From Chloroflexota bacterium (GTDB lineage Bacteria > Chloroflexota > Anaerolineae > Promineifilales > Promineifilaceae): DNA of 5,814 nt. The notes beneath the pieces were generated by a model. It had not been told where the DNA came from. It was given only the letters and a program-made list of their open reading frames with translations, and ran no database searches. The DNA lies in assembly GCA_008501785.1 (NCBI GenBank), contig QQUD01000348.1:1-5814 (forward strand). The letters run 5' to 3'. The position numbers and the translations under genes are program-made. How positions within the stretch are numbered: the stretch's first letter is position 1; each line of letters opens with the position of its first letter. Shown one piece after another: positions 838 to 5,814 of this stretch.

Positions 838-906
838 AATAAGCAAGGTGAAATTCAACGATTGATTCGTGCAATTGAAAATGCAAAAGAAGAGCTTTCA
901 ATATGA
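838..906 (+). pseudogene. In-frame C-terminal remainder of the nuclease gene beyond a premature TAA
   Basis: Directly after the TAA at 835-837 the same frame stays open for 23 codons and ends at TGA 904-906. It reads NKQGEIQRLIRAIENAKEEL plus two residues. Members of this nuclease family usually continue after the DW(Y/F/W) motif with a basic residue, Asn, and then a helix of the form E(I/L)xRLxxAIExAK, which is what is seen here. The TAA occupies the position where a Lys or Arg is expected, so a single AAA-to-TAA change would explain it. The tail has no start codon or ribosome binding site of its own. The gene is therefore either a recent nonsense mutant, or a form lacking its last helix that still folds, or the result of a sequencing error. 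The homology reading comes from my memory of the family, not from a search. Confidence 0.65.
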
Positions 907-988
907 TATCCTAAATAATATCGAAATGCCTTGAACTAATTGATTTACTCTACAATCCATCGTTTAAAATCACGAATATATCGAATAA

Positions 989-1006
989 TCGATAAAATTT
1001 TATCGA
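989..1006. promoter_or_regulatory. Perfect 18-bp palindrome, candidate operator
   Basis: TCGATAAAATTTTATCGA is its own reverse complement over all 18 bases. It has no spacer and no following T-run, so it fits a homodimeric protein binding site better than an intrinsic terminator. It lies about 65 bases upstream of the TTGACA box at 1070. The short word ATCGA recurs around it, as ATATCGAA near 979-985 and in both arms. The function is inferred. Confidence 0.4.
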
Positions 1007-1069
1007 CAATATAATACTTTCATTCTTTCCATTTGTGATTCCCCATATCCCAATTCCCAATTTTGCCAG

Positions 1070-1099
1070 TTGACAACCCCCCTCAATTTGTGATATTTT
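1070..1099 (+). promoter_or_regulatory. Candidate sigma-70-type promoter for the leader/ABC operon
   Basis: A perfect TTGACA -35 box at 1070-1075 is followed after 18 bases by TATTTT at 1094-1099. GATATT at 1092-1097 with a 16-base spacer is an alternative -10. Transcription would start near 1105-1107 and run into the leader ORF at 1159 and then the ABC genes. This is the best promoter match found upstream of the operon, but AT-rich DNA gives chance matches. Confidence 0.45.
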
Positions 1100-1132
1100 A
1101 GTCGTTCGCGTGTTTATCGGAAGTTTGCATGA

Positions 1133-1146
1133 TGCCCAACAGGGCA
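1133..1146 (+). promoter_or_regulatory. Small hairpin abutting the leader ORF ribosome binding site
   Basis: TGCCC (1133-1137) and GGGCA (1142-1146) pair as a 5-bp stem around an AACA loop. The last base of the stem is the first A of the AAGGAGG Shine-Dalgarno at 1146-1152, so the stem could influence access to that site. The stem is short and may be fortuitous. Confidence 0.3.
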
Positions 1147-1158
1147 AGGAGGCGTGCC

Positions 1159-1203
1159 ATGAAAAACCTGCTCAAGATCATCCAAACCCTTTTCGTTGAT
1201 TGA
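1159..1203 (+). CDS. Short leader ORF, 14 residues
   Basis: ATG at 1159 opens a 14-codon frame, MKNLLKIIQTLFVD, ending at TGA 1201-1203. It is preceded by a perfect AAGGAGG at 1146-1152 with an ideal 6-base spacing, one of the best ribosome binding sites in the window. Two in-frame ATGs at 1129 and 1132 would add ten basic residues (MMPNRARRRA), with a weaker GGAAG at 1119-1123. The peptide is amphipathic (K, L, I, F) and lies 325 bases before the ABC start, downstream of the TTGACA promoter candidate. It could be a regulatory leader peptide, a small membrane-active peptide, or the head of a lost gene. No family is recognised. Confidence 0.35.
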   Translation: MKNLLKIIQTLFVD

Positions 1204-1240
1204 TTCTAAATTTTGTAGTTAAAAGTTGATAGCCTTTGTT

Positions 1241-1357
1241 CGTTGTCCGTTGTCCGTGAACCGTAAGCCGTAAACCGATTACGGATTACGAAACCACGGA
1301 TTACGAAATCACGGACTACGAGACTACGGACTACAAGACTACAAGACTAAAGACTAC
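1241..1357. repeat. Degenerate 7/8-base tandem repeat tract
   Basis: From 1241 the sequence breaks into successive units of 7 or 8 bases. The order is CGTTGTC twice, CGTGAAC, CGTAAGC, CGTAAAC, CGATTAC, GGATTAC, GAAACCAC, GGATTAC, GAAATCAC, GGACTAC, GAGACTAC, GGACTAC, AAGACTAC, AAGACTAA and AGACTAC. The units drift gradually along the tract, as expected for slipped-strand expansion with mutation. The style resembles the short tandemly repeated heptanucleotides (STRR) of filamentous cyanobacteria, though the unit sequence differs. A related run of units occurs inside the second ABC gene at 4934-4968 and shares the 9-mer ACCGATTAC (1274-1282 and 4953-4961). No protein-coding role is seen here. 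Confidence 0.8.
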
Positions 1358-1364
1358 AAATTCC

Positions 1365-1404
1365 AAAGGAGGTGCCTACCCAAGGGAGTGATTCCATCGA
1401 CTCC
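1365..1404 (+). promoter_or_regulatory. Ten-base anti-SD match followed by a hairpin, no clear start codon
   Basis: AAAGGAGGTG at 1365-1374 is complementary to the full usual 3' end of bacterial 16S rRNA. No ATG follows at normal distance. The nearest candidate is GTG at 1388, 13 bases after, which opens only a 17-codon frame to TAA 1439-1441. Immediately downstream GGAGT (1385-1389) pairs with ACTCC (1400-1404), and GAT (1390-1392) with ATC (1396-1398) across one bulged G, giving an eight-bp hairpin. It could be a ribosome standby or leader element, or the relic of a start site whose gene is gone. Confidence 0.35.
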
Positions 1405-1527
1405 AGATGTGTCCTGTTCTGTCGTATTGTTTGTATTTTAAGTAAACTGCATCAGTCGCGTGTTGTTTCCTTTTGAAATTTTTGTGCGGTTTACCAACAA
1501 TCATTCATTTTGGAGAAGTTTGAACAT

Positions 1528-3285
1528 ATGGAATTGCCTATTAGACGGTATTGGGACGTGATGTTTCAATACCTGCAACCGTTACGAAATAAAGTTATCT
1601 GGCTAACGTTGCTTATTTTTAGCATGTTGGGACTGCAATTGGTGAATCCGCAGTTGATTCGGTATTTTATTGACACGGCCGTTTCCACCACCACCCTCAC
1701 CCCCCTCATTTACGCCGCCCTTTTCTACCTCGGCTTTTCACTGCTGCTGCAGCTGATTGGCGTTGTCACCACCTACATCAGTGAAGATATTGGTTGGCGC
1801 TCGACTAACCAGCTGCGTGCCGATTTGGCGCGTCACTGCCTGCACCTGGACATGTCCTTCCACAACGAGCACACCCCCGGCGAAATGATCGAACGCATCG
1901 ACGGCGATGTGGCGCACATTGCTATCTTCTTTTCGCAGTTTGTGATTCGGATTATGGGAAATGTGCTGCTGATTGTGGGTGTATTGATTGTGCTGCTGTG
2001 GGAAGATTGGCGGATTTCGCTGGCGCTGGGTGTGTTTACGGCCGTTACCCTCTACACCCTCAGCAAACTGCGCCAAATCGCCGTTCCCCACTGGAAAGCG
2101 GCCCGCGAAGCCAACGCCGACCTCTTTAGCTTCATCGAAGAACAACTTTCCGGCACCGAAGACGTGCGGTCCAGCGGTGCGGTCCCATTTGTGATGAAAA
2201 ACCTGGCCCGCCTGAATCGTATCCGCATGAATAAAGAGATTGACGGAGCCATGAGAAGCATTTTGATTATCGGCACCTGGATTGGCTTATTCGGCATTGG
2301 CCGGATTATTGCGCTTGTGTCTGGATATTATTTGTATCAGGCAGGCGTACTCACCATTGGCTCGGTCTATTTAGTCCTCAACTATACGCTGGCTATCTTC
2401 CGGCCCCTGCGCGAGATTACTAATCAGATTGAGCAAATGCAGCAAGCCGCAGCGGGGATAGAACGGGTTGAATCCTTACAAAAACTAATCAGCAAAATCA
2501 CGAACACAACAACTACCAGCTTACCAAACGGACCACTCAGCGTCACATTTGATCACGTTACCTTTGCCTATCATGAAGAAGAACACATTTTGAAAGATAT
2601 CGACTTCACATTGCAACCGGGCGAGGTGCTGGGCTTGCTCGGGCGCACGGGCAGCGGCAAAACAACACTCACTCGCCTCCTTTTCCGCCTTTATGACACC
2701 CAAACGGGTCAAATTCAACTGGGCAACAAAGCTGACTCCATCCACATTCAAGACACGCCAGTCATGGAACTGCGCCAGCGGATTGGGATGGTCACGCAAG
2801 ATGTGCAGCTTTTTCGGGCCACGGTGCGCGATAATCTCACTTTTTTCGATAAATCGATTACCGATGAGCAAATTCTCGCCGTCATTCATGACCTGGGTCT
2901 GACCAGTTGGTTTGAGTCGCTAACTGATGGATTAGATACCGAATTACAAACTGAAGGCAGCAGTCTCTCGGCAGGTGAAGCACAGTTATTGGCATTTACG
3001 CGGGTATTTTTAAAAGACCCTGGACTGGTGATTCTGGATGAAGCATCTTCTCGGCTTGACCCAGCAACTGAACAGCTAATTGAACGCGCCGTTGACAAGC
3101 TGTTAGCCAATCGCACGGGCATTATCGTGGCGCACCGGCTGGGAACGGTGGCGCGGGCTGACAAGATTATGATTTTGGGAAACGGCCGTATTCTCGAACA
3201 CGGCCCCTACAACGAACTCGTCAACAATCCCACATCCCATTTTTCGCAACTGCTGCAAACCGGTCTCGAAGCCGTAATGGCATAA
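1528..3285 (+). CDS. ABC exporter half-transporter, subunit 1 (permease fused to ATPase; catalytic Walker B, degenerate signature)
   Basis: This 585-residue inner-membrane half-transporter has the usual order of a type IV (ABCB/MsbA-like) exporter. Six membrane segments lie at about 23-45, 58-85, 133-157, 162-180, 245-270 and 275-295, followed by the typical FRPLREITNQIEQMQQAAAGIERVE helix end and an ATPase domain from about 338. In the ATPase, Y348 is the A-loop aromatic, Walker A is GRTGSGKT (372-379), the Q-loop Gln is Q424, the signature is LSAGE (480-484) instead of LSGGQ, Walker B is LVILDE (500-505) with catalytic E505, and H536 is the switch His. I chose ATG 1528 over the in-frame TTG at 1510, because TTTGGAGAAG (1509-1518) is the obvious ribosome binding site and lies inside the TTG version. 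The gene is 12 bases from subunit 2, so the two are surely co-transcribed. The substrate cannot be read from the sequence; drugs, lipids or peptides are possible. Confidence 0.95.
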   Translation: MELPIRRYWDVMFQYLQPLRNKVIWLTLLIFSMLGLQLVNPQLIRYFIDTAVSTTTLTPLIYAALFYLGFSLLLQLIGVVTTYISEDIGWRSTNQLRADLARHCLHLDMSFHNEHTPGEMIERIDGDVAHIAIFFSQFVIRIMGNVLLIVGVLIVLLWEDWRISLALGVFTAVTLYTLSKLRQIAVPHWKAAREANADLFSFIEEQLSGTEDVRSSGAVPFVMKNLARLNRIRMNKEIDGAMRSILIIGTWIGLFGIGRIIALVSGYYLYQAGVLTIGSVYLVLNYTLAIFRPLREITNQIEQMQQAAAGIERVESLQKLISKITNTTTTSLPNGPLSVTFDHVTFAYHEEEHILKDIDFTLQPGEVLGLLGRTGSGKTTLTRLLFRLYDTQTGQIQLGNKADSIHIQDTPVMELRQRIGMVTQDVQLFRATVRDNLTFFDKSITDEQILAVIHDLGLTSWFESLTDGLDTELQTEGSSLSAGEAQLLAFTRVFLKDPGLVILDEASSRLDPATEQLIERAVDKLLANRTGIIVAHRLGTVARADKIMILGNGRILEHGPYNELVNNPTSHFSQLLQTGLEAVMA

Positions 3286-3286
3286 A

Positions 3287-3294
3287 TAGGAGGG
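3287..3294 (+). promoter_or_regulatory. Ribosome binding site of ABC subunit 2
   Basis: TAGGAGGG lies in the 12-base gap after the TAA of subunit 1, with AGGAGG at 3288-3293 and only four bases before ATG 3298. The S9 peptidase gene downstream uses the same AGGAGG plus four bases spacing (5315-5320), so short spacing seems normal in this genome. Confidence 0.8.
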
Positions 3295-3297
3295 AAA

Positions 3298-5133
3298 ATG
3301 ACAGCAACAACCCAAACACCAGAGAACACCACACCCACCTGGAAATTCGTGTGGTCTTTAATCCGTTTTCGGCAGCCACAGCACACCTTCAACCTGATTT
3401 CACTGTTGGTACCCATGATTGCCATGATTGGCATGCCGTTAATCATTCGTGCCTACCTGAACATGCTCAGCGGCAGCGCACCAGTCGCATTTAACTTGTG
3501 GACCTTGCTGGCGCTGCTGGTCGTGTTTGTTATGTCACACATGGGGGCCGTTTGGGGCATCTTTCGTATGAATCGCCCCTTTATGCTGCACAATCATGCC
3601 CTGCTGCACAAAAACATGATGCAGCGGATATTGGAGCGTCCTGGAGCCAACGCCCTGCCCGAATCCCCAGGTGAAGCAATCAGCCGTTTTCGGGGCGATG
3701 TGTGGGAAATCCCTTTATTTGCGCTCTGGCTGAACAATATCGCCGCACACACCTTTTTCATGACTATAACCCTGACGATTATGCTCGTCATCAACGCCCG
3801 CCTGACACTGATTGCTTTGATTCCATTAGCTGTGGTTATTTCTATTGCCAATGCGGCGACTGGACGCATCGAAGCATATCGCAAGGAATTGCGCAAACGC
3901 AGCGGCATTGTCACTGGCTTTATTGCCGAAACATTTAACGCCGTGCAAGCCATCAAAGTAGCCACCGCAGAGGACCGCGTAATTGATTATTTTGAAACGC
4001 TCAATGAAAAGCGGCGGCAGGCGGCGCTAAAAGACAGGCTGTTCAATGAAATTCTGAGGTCTATCTTTCGCAACTCTAGCAATCTGGCAACGGCCGTTAT
4101 CCTCCTCCTCGCCGCCCAATCTTTGCAAGATGGCAGCTTCACAGTTGGCGACTTTGCCCTTTTCACCTCCTACCTCGCCAATACCACCGATTTTGTTACC
4201 TTCCTCGGCTTTTTAATGGCCCGATACAAGCAGGCAGGCGTGGCCGCCAATCGAATGGTGCGCTTGTTGCAAGGCGCACCCCCAGAAAATTTGGTGCAGC
4301 ATGGACCGGTGCATATGACGGGTAATTTGCCTGAGGTGCCTTTTGTGGCGAAAACGGCCGTTCACCACCTGCACACCCTCGACCTCAATCACCTCACCTA
4401 CAAACACCCCGATTCCAACCGGGGCATCGAAGATATTAACCTGCAACTTGAACGCGGCTCCTTCACCATCATTACAGGTCGCATTGGCTCCGGCAAGACG
4501 ACATTGCTGCGCGTTTTGTTGGGTTTACTGCCTATTGAAAACGGCCAAATCCTTTGGAATAACAATCCTGTTGACAATCCGGCGGAATTTTTTGTACCAC
4601 CCCGCGCTGCCTACACGGCCCAGGTACCGCGTCTCTTTAGCGACACGCTGCGCAACAATCTGCTGCTGGGTCTACCTGAAGAGGCCGTTGACATTCCGGC
4701 CGCTATCGAAGCGGCTGTCATGGGGCCAGATTTACAAGAGTTGGAAAAAGGACTAGACACAAAGGTGGGCCCGAAAGGCGTCAAGTTATCTGGCGGCCAA
4801 ATTCAACGCGCCGCCACCGCCCGCATGTTCCTGCGCAACGCCGAACTGCTCGTCTTTGACGACCTTTCTAGTGCGCTCGATGTCGAGACTGAAAAGCAGT
4901 TATGGGAACGGCTTTTGCATGGTAAGCAGTTTTCGGTAAACGGTAAACGGTCACCGATTACAGACCACCAACAACCCACCCTGCTAGTCGTATCTCACCG
5001 TCGTGTTGCTTTGCAGCGGGCTGACCATATTGTTGTGTTGAAAAACGGCCGTATTCACGCCACAGGCACCCTGGATCACCTCCTCGCCACCAACGAAGAA
5101 ATGCAACACCTTTGGGAAGGCAAGCTCACCTAA
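3298..5133 (+). CDS. ABC exporter half-transporter, subunit 2 (canonical signature, non-catalytic Walker B Asp, repeat insertion in ATPase)
   Basis: This 611-residue partner of the preceding gene has six membrane segments at about 30-53, 66-88, 147-166, 168-187, 260-277 and 283-308, then an ATPase domain from about 360. Walker A is GRIGSGKT (394-401), the Q-loop Gln is Q442, the signature is canonical LSGGQ (497-501), and Walker B ends VFDD with D522 where the catalytic Glu normally sits; H567 is the switch His. The Asp makes this subunit the non-catalytic half, as in heterodimers such as BmrCD or TM287/288. Together with subunit 1 it should form one working and one degenerate ATP site. Residues about 541-559 ([19 protein letters not shown]), between the D-loop helix and the switch strand, look like an insertion relative to the family. 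Bases 4934-4968 within it are 7-base repeat units. The linker 326-359 between membrane and ATPase domains is somewhat long. Confidence 0.95.
4934..4968. repeat. Heptad repeat units embedded in the ABC subunit 2 coding sequence
   Basis: The bases read as five consecutive heptamers: CGGTAAA, CGGTAAA, CGGTCAC, CGATTAC, AGACCAC. Unit CGATTAC is identical to one in the intergenic tract (1276-1282), and the 9-mer ACCGATTAC is shared. The repeat is in frame and encodes about residues 546-557 in a surface loop of the ATPase domain, with no stop codon produced. Confidence 0.7.
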
Positions 5134-5139
5134 CCAAGA

Positions 5140-5272
5140 AGAGTTACCAACTTCCTGGAAGCTGATGAGCAAAACGCTGAACGAGTCATGTATAACCAAG
5201 ATTCACCAAACACAGCTTCTGGGAAGTTTTGATACGGGCTATTTGCTAACTTTAATGGAAGTTGGCAACTCT
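5140..5272. repeat. 133-bp segment bounded by 16-base inverted repeats
   Basis: AGAGTTACCAACTTCC at 5140-5155 and GGAAGTTGGCAACTCT at 5257-5272 are inverted copies with one mismatch in 16 bases. They lie wholly in the gap between ABC subunit 2 and the peptidase gene, starting seven bases after the stop codon. The interior has no ORF of note but holds two further GGAAG(C/T)T words (5157-5163 and 5222-5228). No clear target-site duplication is visible. It could be a miniature inverted-repeat element, a long-range RNA stem serving to end or insulate the ABC transcript, or a pair of binding sites. There is no T-run, so it is not a classic intrinsic terminator. Confidence 0.55.
5229..5256 (+). promoter_or_regulatory. 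Candidate promoter for the S9 peptidase gene
   Basis: TTGATA (5229-5234) and TTTAAT (5251-5256) are each one base from the sigma-70 consensus, with a 16-base spacer. Initiation near 5263 would leave a leader of about 60 bases before ATG 5325. The right arm of the inverted repeat (5257-5272) begins directly after the -10 box and would cover the start site, which would suit a repressor site or a hairpin at the 5' end of the RNA. This assignment is inference. Confidence 0.35.
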
Positions 5273-5324
5273 ATCAAAATTCGACTATCATTGCATCATT
5301 CCAGAAAGCATTCCAGGAGGTAAC

Positions 5325-5814
5325 ATGGCTGCCGCCAAAAAGAGCCGGATAACTGCAGAAGATTTGTACCGCTTTGAACTGATCACCGACGCCCAGATTT
5401 CTCCCAATGGCAAATTTATTGTTTACACCGTGCAGCGGATTGACAAAAAAACTGAGAAAAAATTAAGCAACCTGTGGCGAGTGCCCACCGAGGGTGGGAA
5501 AGCACGCCAATTTACCTATGGGGATCATTCTGACTCGATGCCGCGCTGGTCGCCGGATAGTCAGGAAATTGCATTTCTTTCGAATCGGGGAAACAACGGG
5601 AAACCACCCCAATTGTACATTATTCCAGTTGATGGCGGAGAGGCACGCCCATTAACCAACCTCAAAGGCGTGATTGGTGATTTTGAATGGTCACCAGACG
5701 GCAAGCAATTTGCCATCATATTCCGCAAAAAAGACAAAGAAGTGCTGGAACGTGAGGGTGATGAGGATAAGAAAAAGTTAGGAGTCGTCTCCCGACACGT
5801 CACCACCACCCAAT
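5325..5814 (+). CDS. S9-family peptidase (prolyl oligopeptidase/acylaminoacyl-peptidase-like), N-terminal part, cut by window end
   Basis: ATG 5325 follows AGGAGG at 5315-5320 and opens a frame of 163 codons that runs off the window without a stop. The N-terminus (MAAAKKSRITAEDLYRFELI) has no signal peptide, so the enzyme is probably cytoplasmic; the phrase ITAEDLYRF is typical of the start of S9C-like peptidases. PD40/WD40-like propeller blades are visible: DAQISPNGKFIVYTVQ (22-37), PRWSPDSQEIAFLSNRG (73-89) followed by LYIIPVDGGEARPLT (97-111), and FEWSPDGKQFAIIF (120-133). The charged stretch 134-151 (KKDKEVLEREGDEDKKK) is usual in a propeller loop. Family members carry a C-terminal alpha/beta-hydrolase domain with a Ser-Asp-His triad, which here would lie past the window, so catalytic competence cannot be judged. 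It cleaves short peptides or blocked N-termini in known relatives. It is 191 bases from the ABC operon and same-stranded. Confidence 0.9.
   Translation, partial: MAAAKKSRITAEDLYRFELITDAQISPNGKFIVYTVQRIDKKTEKKLSNLWRVPTEGGKARQFTYGDHSDSMPRWSPDSQEIAFLSNRGNNGKPPQLYIIPVDGGEARPLTNLKGVIGDFEWSPDGKQFAIIFRKKDKEVLEREGDEDKKKLGVVSRHVTTTQ

Follow-up and report, generated by a model that had tools for sequence, protein, structure and literature searches.

In Rickettsia, palindromic repeat elements (RPEs) stand in frame within existing genes at solvent-exposed places; some ortholog positions hold elements of different groups, and the idea of a hotspot has been raised (PMC3767692). The TAACTGA heptamers of Beggiatoaceae and cyanobacteria are intergenic direct repeats, some of which lie within reading frames, chiefly those of hypothetical proteins or the ends of genes (PMC4679880). 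The heptamers GGGAATC of Xanthomonas and GGGGATT of Nostoc are over-represented between genes and under-represented on the coding strand of ORFs, and the heptamer arrays of Xanthomonas change rapidly in length and sequence between close species (PMC4692102). Chloroflexus aurantiacus carries 22 satellites of one heptamer, GATAGRA being the Chloroflexus heptamer (PMC6749651); mirror repeats and oligopurine stretches are moderately over-represented in Chloroflexus and Roseiflexus (PMC4060949). Several bacterial phyla thus have heptamer repeats on record, and the papers considered here do not agree on a role or a means of spreading. Among the matches listed in a search of the open literature, with subscription papers mostly outside it, no title or abstract concerns heptads in the transporter loop described below.

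The DNA analysed here, the window, is a stretch of 5,814 nucleotides from a Chloroflexota bacterium (contig QQUD01000348.1 of assembly GCA_008501785.1), in which a heptad array lies inside the gene of an ABC exporter half (Table 1). That heptad DNA in frame yields new protein sequence inside one loop of this protein, the query, is well supported. The larger point, missed in an earlier note on this DNA, is that the same loop appears, from the protein sequences of the relatives, to hold different heptads in many lineages. The likeness to the RPEs, as the available text describes them, is that repeat DNA stands in frame within an existing gene and adds a peptide in an exposed place. In contrast, the RPEs are palindromes of 100–150 bp belonging to defined families and the query holds a non-palindromic heptad array of about 35 bases; across the relatives the heptad pieces are short arrays with many units, unlike the RPE families. 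The comparison with Rickettsia drawn in the earlier note therefore stands in idea, the insert being in frame and exposed or disordered, and does not extend to a palindrome in the query loop, although the loops of a few relatives read as inverted heptad arms. The TAACTGA repeats, in what was available of their description, are similarly intergenic heptamer direct repeats that also occur in reading frames. There, however, a single unit is involved, whereas here several units, as inferred, occur at the same internal loop across a conserved transporter family. The heptamers of Xanthomonas, Nostoc and Chloroflexus are alike in forming arrays spread over genomes and differ in that no recurrent protein site is described for them in the accessible parts of the papers (PMC4692102, PMC6749651).

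Table 1. Coordinates in the window of the exporter genes, the loop with its heptad array and the intergenic heptad tracts.
Feature	Position	Strand	Basis
Partner ABC exporter half, Walker B ILDEAS, altered signature LSAGEAQ	1528..3285	+	translation, PF00664, PF00005
Host of the insert: ABC exporter half of 611 aa whose Walker B (FDD) is degenerate	3298..5133	+	ORF, PF00664, PF00005
Walker B, LVFDD, residues 518–522, D at the usual place of the catalytic Glu	4849..4863	+	translation, family count
Loop codons 540–560 (21 residues)	4915..4977	+	187-protein loop parse; AlphaFold2 model
In-frame heptad array CGGTAAA, CGGTAAA, CGGTCAC, CGATTAC, AGACCAC	4934..4968	+	sequence, TRF, lag-7 self-match
Single heptamers of the array: CGGTAAA, CGGTAAA, CGGTCAC, CGATTAC, AGACCAC	4934–4940, 4941–4947, 4948–4954, 4955–4961, 4962–4968		
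Switch-loop His567	4996..4998	+	alignments A1 and A2
Short heptad tract, ATTCCCA units	1038..1062	.	TRF
Heptad/octad tract, units TTGTCCG, CCGTAAA, CGGATTA, CGGACTA, inverted arms	1236..1359	.	TRF, lag-7 scan, inverted repeats

The two adjacent ORFs 1528–3285 and 3298–5133 both encode PF00664 and PF00005. Exporters usually carry a Glu after Walker B, and heterodimeric exporters have one degenerate site, the half without Glu bearing a canonical signature and the partner the reverse. This arrangement is matched in sequence by the window, where two half-transporters are adjacent and the Glu-less half has LSGGQ, the other ILDEAS and LSAGEAQ. Residues 518–522 form a Walker B motif with D replacing the catalytic Glu, His567 is the switch-loop His, and the host exporter, like the heterodimeric exporters, has one degenerate site. 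Of the 187 parsed family members, 186 have a Walker B ending in DD and one has DN, and the signature LSGGQ is found in all 187. Neither alignment A1 (24 rows) nor A2 (67 rows) shows any variation in the residues of the Walker A stretch, the signature or the switch His, so the gene looks intact. Judged by these motifs, the product of 3298–5133 represents the degenerate-site half in a putative heterodimeric type IV ABC exporter of Chloroflexota. Its fold is common with Sav1866, the top Foldseek match, with TmrAB and TM287/288, whose chains are in the first five, and with BmrCD, ranked 36th, at TM-scores of about 0.5–0.6.

The five heptamers that the earlier note had read at 4934–4968 were found exactly there by sequence and by TRF, which reports 4934–4951 with period 7, 2.6 copies and 100% matches. 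Within 4915–4980 the lag-7 self-match is 34/59 (58%), with lags 14 and 21 at 56% and 47% and the remaining lags from 3 to 24 at 15–33%. The best 28-base period-7 score of the gene is 21, a value reached by none of 2,000 codon shuffles (shuffle maximum 19), which rules out chance periodicity as the source of the array; a lag-7 scan between 1528 and 5100 found no other place with a score within 2 of that of the loop. The array is read as CAG TTT TCG GTA AAC GGT AAA CGG TCA CCG ATT ACA GAC CAC and the frame stays open through 4934–4968, TCA at 4951–4953 standing where a third perfect CGGTAAA would give TAA. A search of 4900–5000 for inverted repeats of at least 9 bases found none, so the query loop has no palindrome. 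The array has 2.6 perfect copies at 4934–4951 followed by degenerate units, and thus falls outside 7n3, the code for a heptanucleotide repeat with three or more perfect units in the available part of PMC4060949.

The loop is placed between the helix that follows the D-loop and the strand leading to the switch His, and both the loop parse and the AlphaFold2 model agree with the position that had been proposed between these elements. In the model of the query (mean pLDDT 81) a helix at 529–541 and a strand at 561–565 flank the loop, in which pLDDT is below 50 at residues 546–548 and 550–556. In the model of the relative P0121 the loop extends over about residues 613–673, its first part forming a longer helix, and the values are below 50 at 639–657 and 659–666. 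The product of the array is a flexible surface loop that is more likely tolerated than selected. About 14 residues of the query loop are extra, since it has 21 residues and the same loop has 5–7 in 88 of 187 relatives; the roughly 15–19 residues claimed earlier are thus too many. Sequence alignment to three solved exporter chains, Pgp-1 and two versions of plant ABCB1, gave six domain alignments at the loop, every one of them with 14 gap columns there.

The relatives comprise 120 proteins, query included, from a first search and 189 after two further searches seeded by relatives; each protein search contributed the 120 top-ranking proteins out of some 8,000 matches, and the set is part of the family. 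Organism names, given for a minority of the rows, belong to Chloroflexota (Anaerolineaceae, Ardenticatenaceae, Roseiflexaceae, Caldilineaceae, Leptofilum and others), except one row labelled Chitinophagaceae. The query protein represents two member sequences on two contigs; some relatives may carry sequencing errors, and database contigs are often short. The loop was parsed in 187 of the 189 proteins, the unparsed ones being P0032 and P0109, and ranges from 5 to 62 residues, with at least 12 in 70 proteins. The comparison of the loop with orthologues, called for in the earlier note, was made on these 187. The loop sequence of the query, whose presence in unrelated lineages would have spoken against the insertion proposed there, is in 0 of the 186 other parsed relatives, and loop sequences differ even among the sisters P0001, P0002 and P0003. 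Inspection of the loop list by eye showed no multiple-of-seven rule for loop lengths. In other collections, a search of genome contigs with the single protein matched only a Paenibacillus locus at 23% identity, and family alignment A1 found no relative in viral contigs. A tblastn search of plasmids gave ten relatives among the matches listed, 37–45% identical; in two cyanobacterial loci from this search the loop pattern was unparsed and no lag-7 tract appeared at the threshold.

The period of the relatives' loops was read through their peptides, DNA being read for the query alone. The test takes the best local 7-base self-match over all synonymous DNA and sets it against those of 100 permuted versions of the peptide, which puts the lowest attainable p at about 0.01; it covered the 70 loops of at least 12 residues, the other 117 being shorter. 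At p ≤ 0.02, 21 of the 70 loops respond at lag 7, against 0, 3 and 4 at lags 4, 5 and 8, and at p ≤ 0.05 the numbers are 24 against 1, 5 and 7. The query is among the positives, the known DNA case being recovered by the test. About a third of the long loops are thus shown, at the level of synonymous reading, to carry a period-7 signal. The other 46, at p ≤ 0.05, do not, and heptads as the only source of long loops are therefore not established. A lag-7 score of at least 13 is reached by 22 of the 70 loops and by 4 of 840 length-matched segments from the same proteins; 17/840 segments reach it at lag 5 and 7/840 at lag 8, the strictness of the score varying by lag. When the peptides are reversed, which keeps composition and residue spacing, only 3 of the 70 loops still score high, against 22 unreversed. 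A 7-residue periodicity of the coiled-coil type was rejected, as the signal is one of 7 bases running across codon phases and is mostly lost on reversal. A cruder earlier test of exact repeated units in 55 loops pointed in the same direction. A sliding scan of all 187 proteins gave a match touching the loop in 16 and elsewhere in 5, namely at the C-terminus of P0157, in one conserved segment shared by three relatives and in P0183. The C-terminal stretch of P0157 (about residues 610–624), which looks like a second heptad, is a period-7 stretch besides the heptad loop of that protein.

The units inferred from the peptides differ widely, with GACAGGG in P0153, TCAGCCT in P0135, GGAATGC in P0098, TCCTCCG in P0084 and GACGAAC in P0180, and the sisters P0001, P0002 and P0003 all score with unlike units. 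Such units are approximate, since the query itself yields ATCACCG, a blend of its later units, and not CGGTAAA. Their freedom from stops was excluded as evidence, because units derived from peptides are stop-free nearly by construction. One of two equally good units of the P0002 loop, CGGACAA, is the reverse complement of TTGTCCG in the tract of the window, and P0002 is the only one of the 22 loops to fit any of the ten window heptamers compared. The loops of P0056, P0070 and P0105 give a period-8 signal with a score of at least 16, P0105 also having period 7; octads may mix with heptads in loops, as they do in the tract.

Inverted arms were sought by scoring a unit jointly with its reverse complement, with the plain complement as control. 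The arm scores are 16 versus 10 in P0121, 15 versus 10 in P0138 and 11 versus 9 in P0143, and among the 21 positive loops of at least 19 residues the reverse complement beats the control 12 times and loses twice. Against the plain reverse the positives are evenly split, 7 to 6, and the 17 other loops go 10 to 1 against the reverse complement; units that coincide with their own reverse after rotation inflate this control. These peptide-based scores support inverted heptad arms in a few loops and not as a general feature.

On a FastTree phylogeny of 187 rows built without the loop, in which 53 of 184 inner branches have support below 80, the 24 positives (here p ≤ 0.03) require at least 17 changes. 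The 22 loops scoring at least 13 need 16 changes, the 15 scoring at least 16 need 13 and the 10 scoring at least 20 need 10; when only loops of up to 9 residues form the other state, these become 13, 12 and 9. The counts are blind to gain versus loss, and the positives are partly non-independent, P0043 and P0044 sharing one loop. Close pairs differ strongly, P0180 and P0165 being 89.8% identical outside a loop of 31 versus 6 residues and P0143 and P0141 89.3% identical with loops of 26 versus 5. Because such short-loop partners stand beside long loops, and because loops are unlike between sisters, the protein sequences point to repeated, fairly recent events.

The intergenic comparison for the query rests on one tract in the window, the larger one, which contains inverted repeats, for example 1242–1254/1322–1334 and 1248–1259/1309–1320. 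Against the reverse complement of this tract (about 1225–1266) the whole loop matches at 29 of 42 bases, net 16. This ranks first among 593 coding slices, the best slice beyond the loop scoring 13, and is equalled by none of 1,000 base shuffles and by 10 of 1,000 scrambles that preserve the period. The 9-mer ACCGATTAC, put forward earlier as the link between loop and tract, is shared but weak alone, and was dropped as chief evidence because tract 8-mers recur widely, 20 of them in 1528–5800 with only two in the loop. The proposed origin of the loop repeat in the intergenic family is moderately supported, at about 1/100 against the period-preserving null; the transfer itself we infer. Kinship of the query loop with the tract is likely on this sequence match. 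A 20-base CGGTAAA pattern was found in six viral contigs, five of which show a longer lag-7 tract there; two of the six (L003 and L006) resemble copies of each other. A blastn search of window 900–1500 against phages gave no match.

The reading that we prefer, at a probability of about 0.72, is a recurrent heptad origin at one permissive loop, by whichever route. Heptad arrays, which intergenic DNA of Chloroflexota is known to contain, would repeatedly enter or grow at a permissive surface loop of the degenerate-site half, short pieces landing there when copied during repair or recombination and slippage then lengthening them. As 7 leaves a remainder of 1 on division by three, three successive units take an array through every codon phase, and the surviving pieces would be those of a net length divisible by three and without stops. 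The loop would be a place where insertions harm least, and heptad arrays a common insertable DNA of these genomes. Inserted pieces would drift, which would account for weaker signals and perhaps for part of the 46 long loops that show none. The copying from intergenic arrays, the near-neutrality and the order of events are steps that we infer, copying being favoured by the inverted arms and by the resemblance of the query loop to the local tract. The main rival, a narrower version of this explanation that overlaps with it, would have the arrays arise locally when polymerase slippage extends a 7-base duplication formed by chance, without intergenic material and with the period set by a general 7-base preference of slippage. 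It accords with the differing units of the relatives, with the P0153 loop, which reads as a plain tandem array, and with an earlier survey in which heptanucleotides outnumber the other long simple repeats in most genomes, for which the available parts of two papers give a polymerase-footprint slippage idea (PMC4679880, PMC4692102). Slippage alone, however, does not make the inverted arms of P0121 and P0138, and the loop-to-tract match of the query beats 990 of 1,000 scrambled heptad arrays; we hold a purely local origin to be less likely. At the other extreme, heptad arrays with inverted arms could be a mobile repeat class of Chloroflexota and phages that inserts repeatedly at preferred sites, permissive loops being a phylum-wide standing target. 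We consider this unlikely; if true, the NBD loop would be the first example of loops turning non-coding repeats into peptide.

Two further explanations bear on the loop rather than on the repeats. Heptad inserts might have been retained as a regulatory or docking loop of the degenerate NBD, a suggestion that draws on the insert being a near neighbour, in sequence, of the switch His in the degenerate-site half, and on the presence of loops of at least 12 residues in 70 of 187 proteins. An adaptive loop of this kind is improbable, given sequences that are unconserved even between the three sisters, close partners of two positives that have no insert, and low model confidence at the loop. The loop might also be an ordinary indel-prone hydrophilic linker that varies freely, its period being due to composition or chance. 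The 46 loops without signal, and several that are Gly/Asn/Ser-rich without a period (P0061, for example), are what such a linker would give; the signal, however, is not reproduced by permutation, by reversal, at other lags or in segments of the same proteins, and period 7 is directly visible in the DNA of the query. For the family this explanation is very improbable, and for the query itself close to refuted. Under recurrent heptad origin, one loop with different heptads per lineage, and close partners without them, would be a natural record of array movement and of non-coding repeats becoming protein, and such repeats could give rise to new protein sequence again and again. Pairs about 90% identical make the question of array movement testable by DNA comparison, and reading period 7 through synonymous codons is usable on protein databases without DNA.

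Several observations lie beside the exporter loop. One 11-kb viral contig (L003) carries seven lag-7 tracts with several different units over 901–11026. A phage contig (L005) has three heptad arrays (1123–1279, 1715–1909 and 3207–3340) in gaps adjoining tail-module genes, which stop shortly upstream of start codons; the first two, which were the arrays tested, carry long arms in inverted orientation, one example spanning 62 bases with 76% complementarity. In the window itself, an ORF at 160–837 encodes an EAD7 effector-associated domain and a REase_MTES_1575 nuclease-like domain. This ORF stops at 835–837, before the domain profile is complete (82 of 96), and its frame remains open as far as 906, so a stop may have shortened the gene. 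An intergenic element at 5140–5272 separates the exporter from a gene that matches PD40 and DPP IV N-terminal, and has 16-base inverted arms (5140–5155/5257–5272, 94% complementary) and a second pair at 5149–5164/5213–5228. Its sequence suggests a small palindromic repeat that differs in kind from the heptads.
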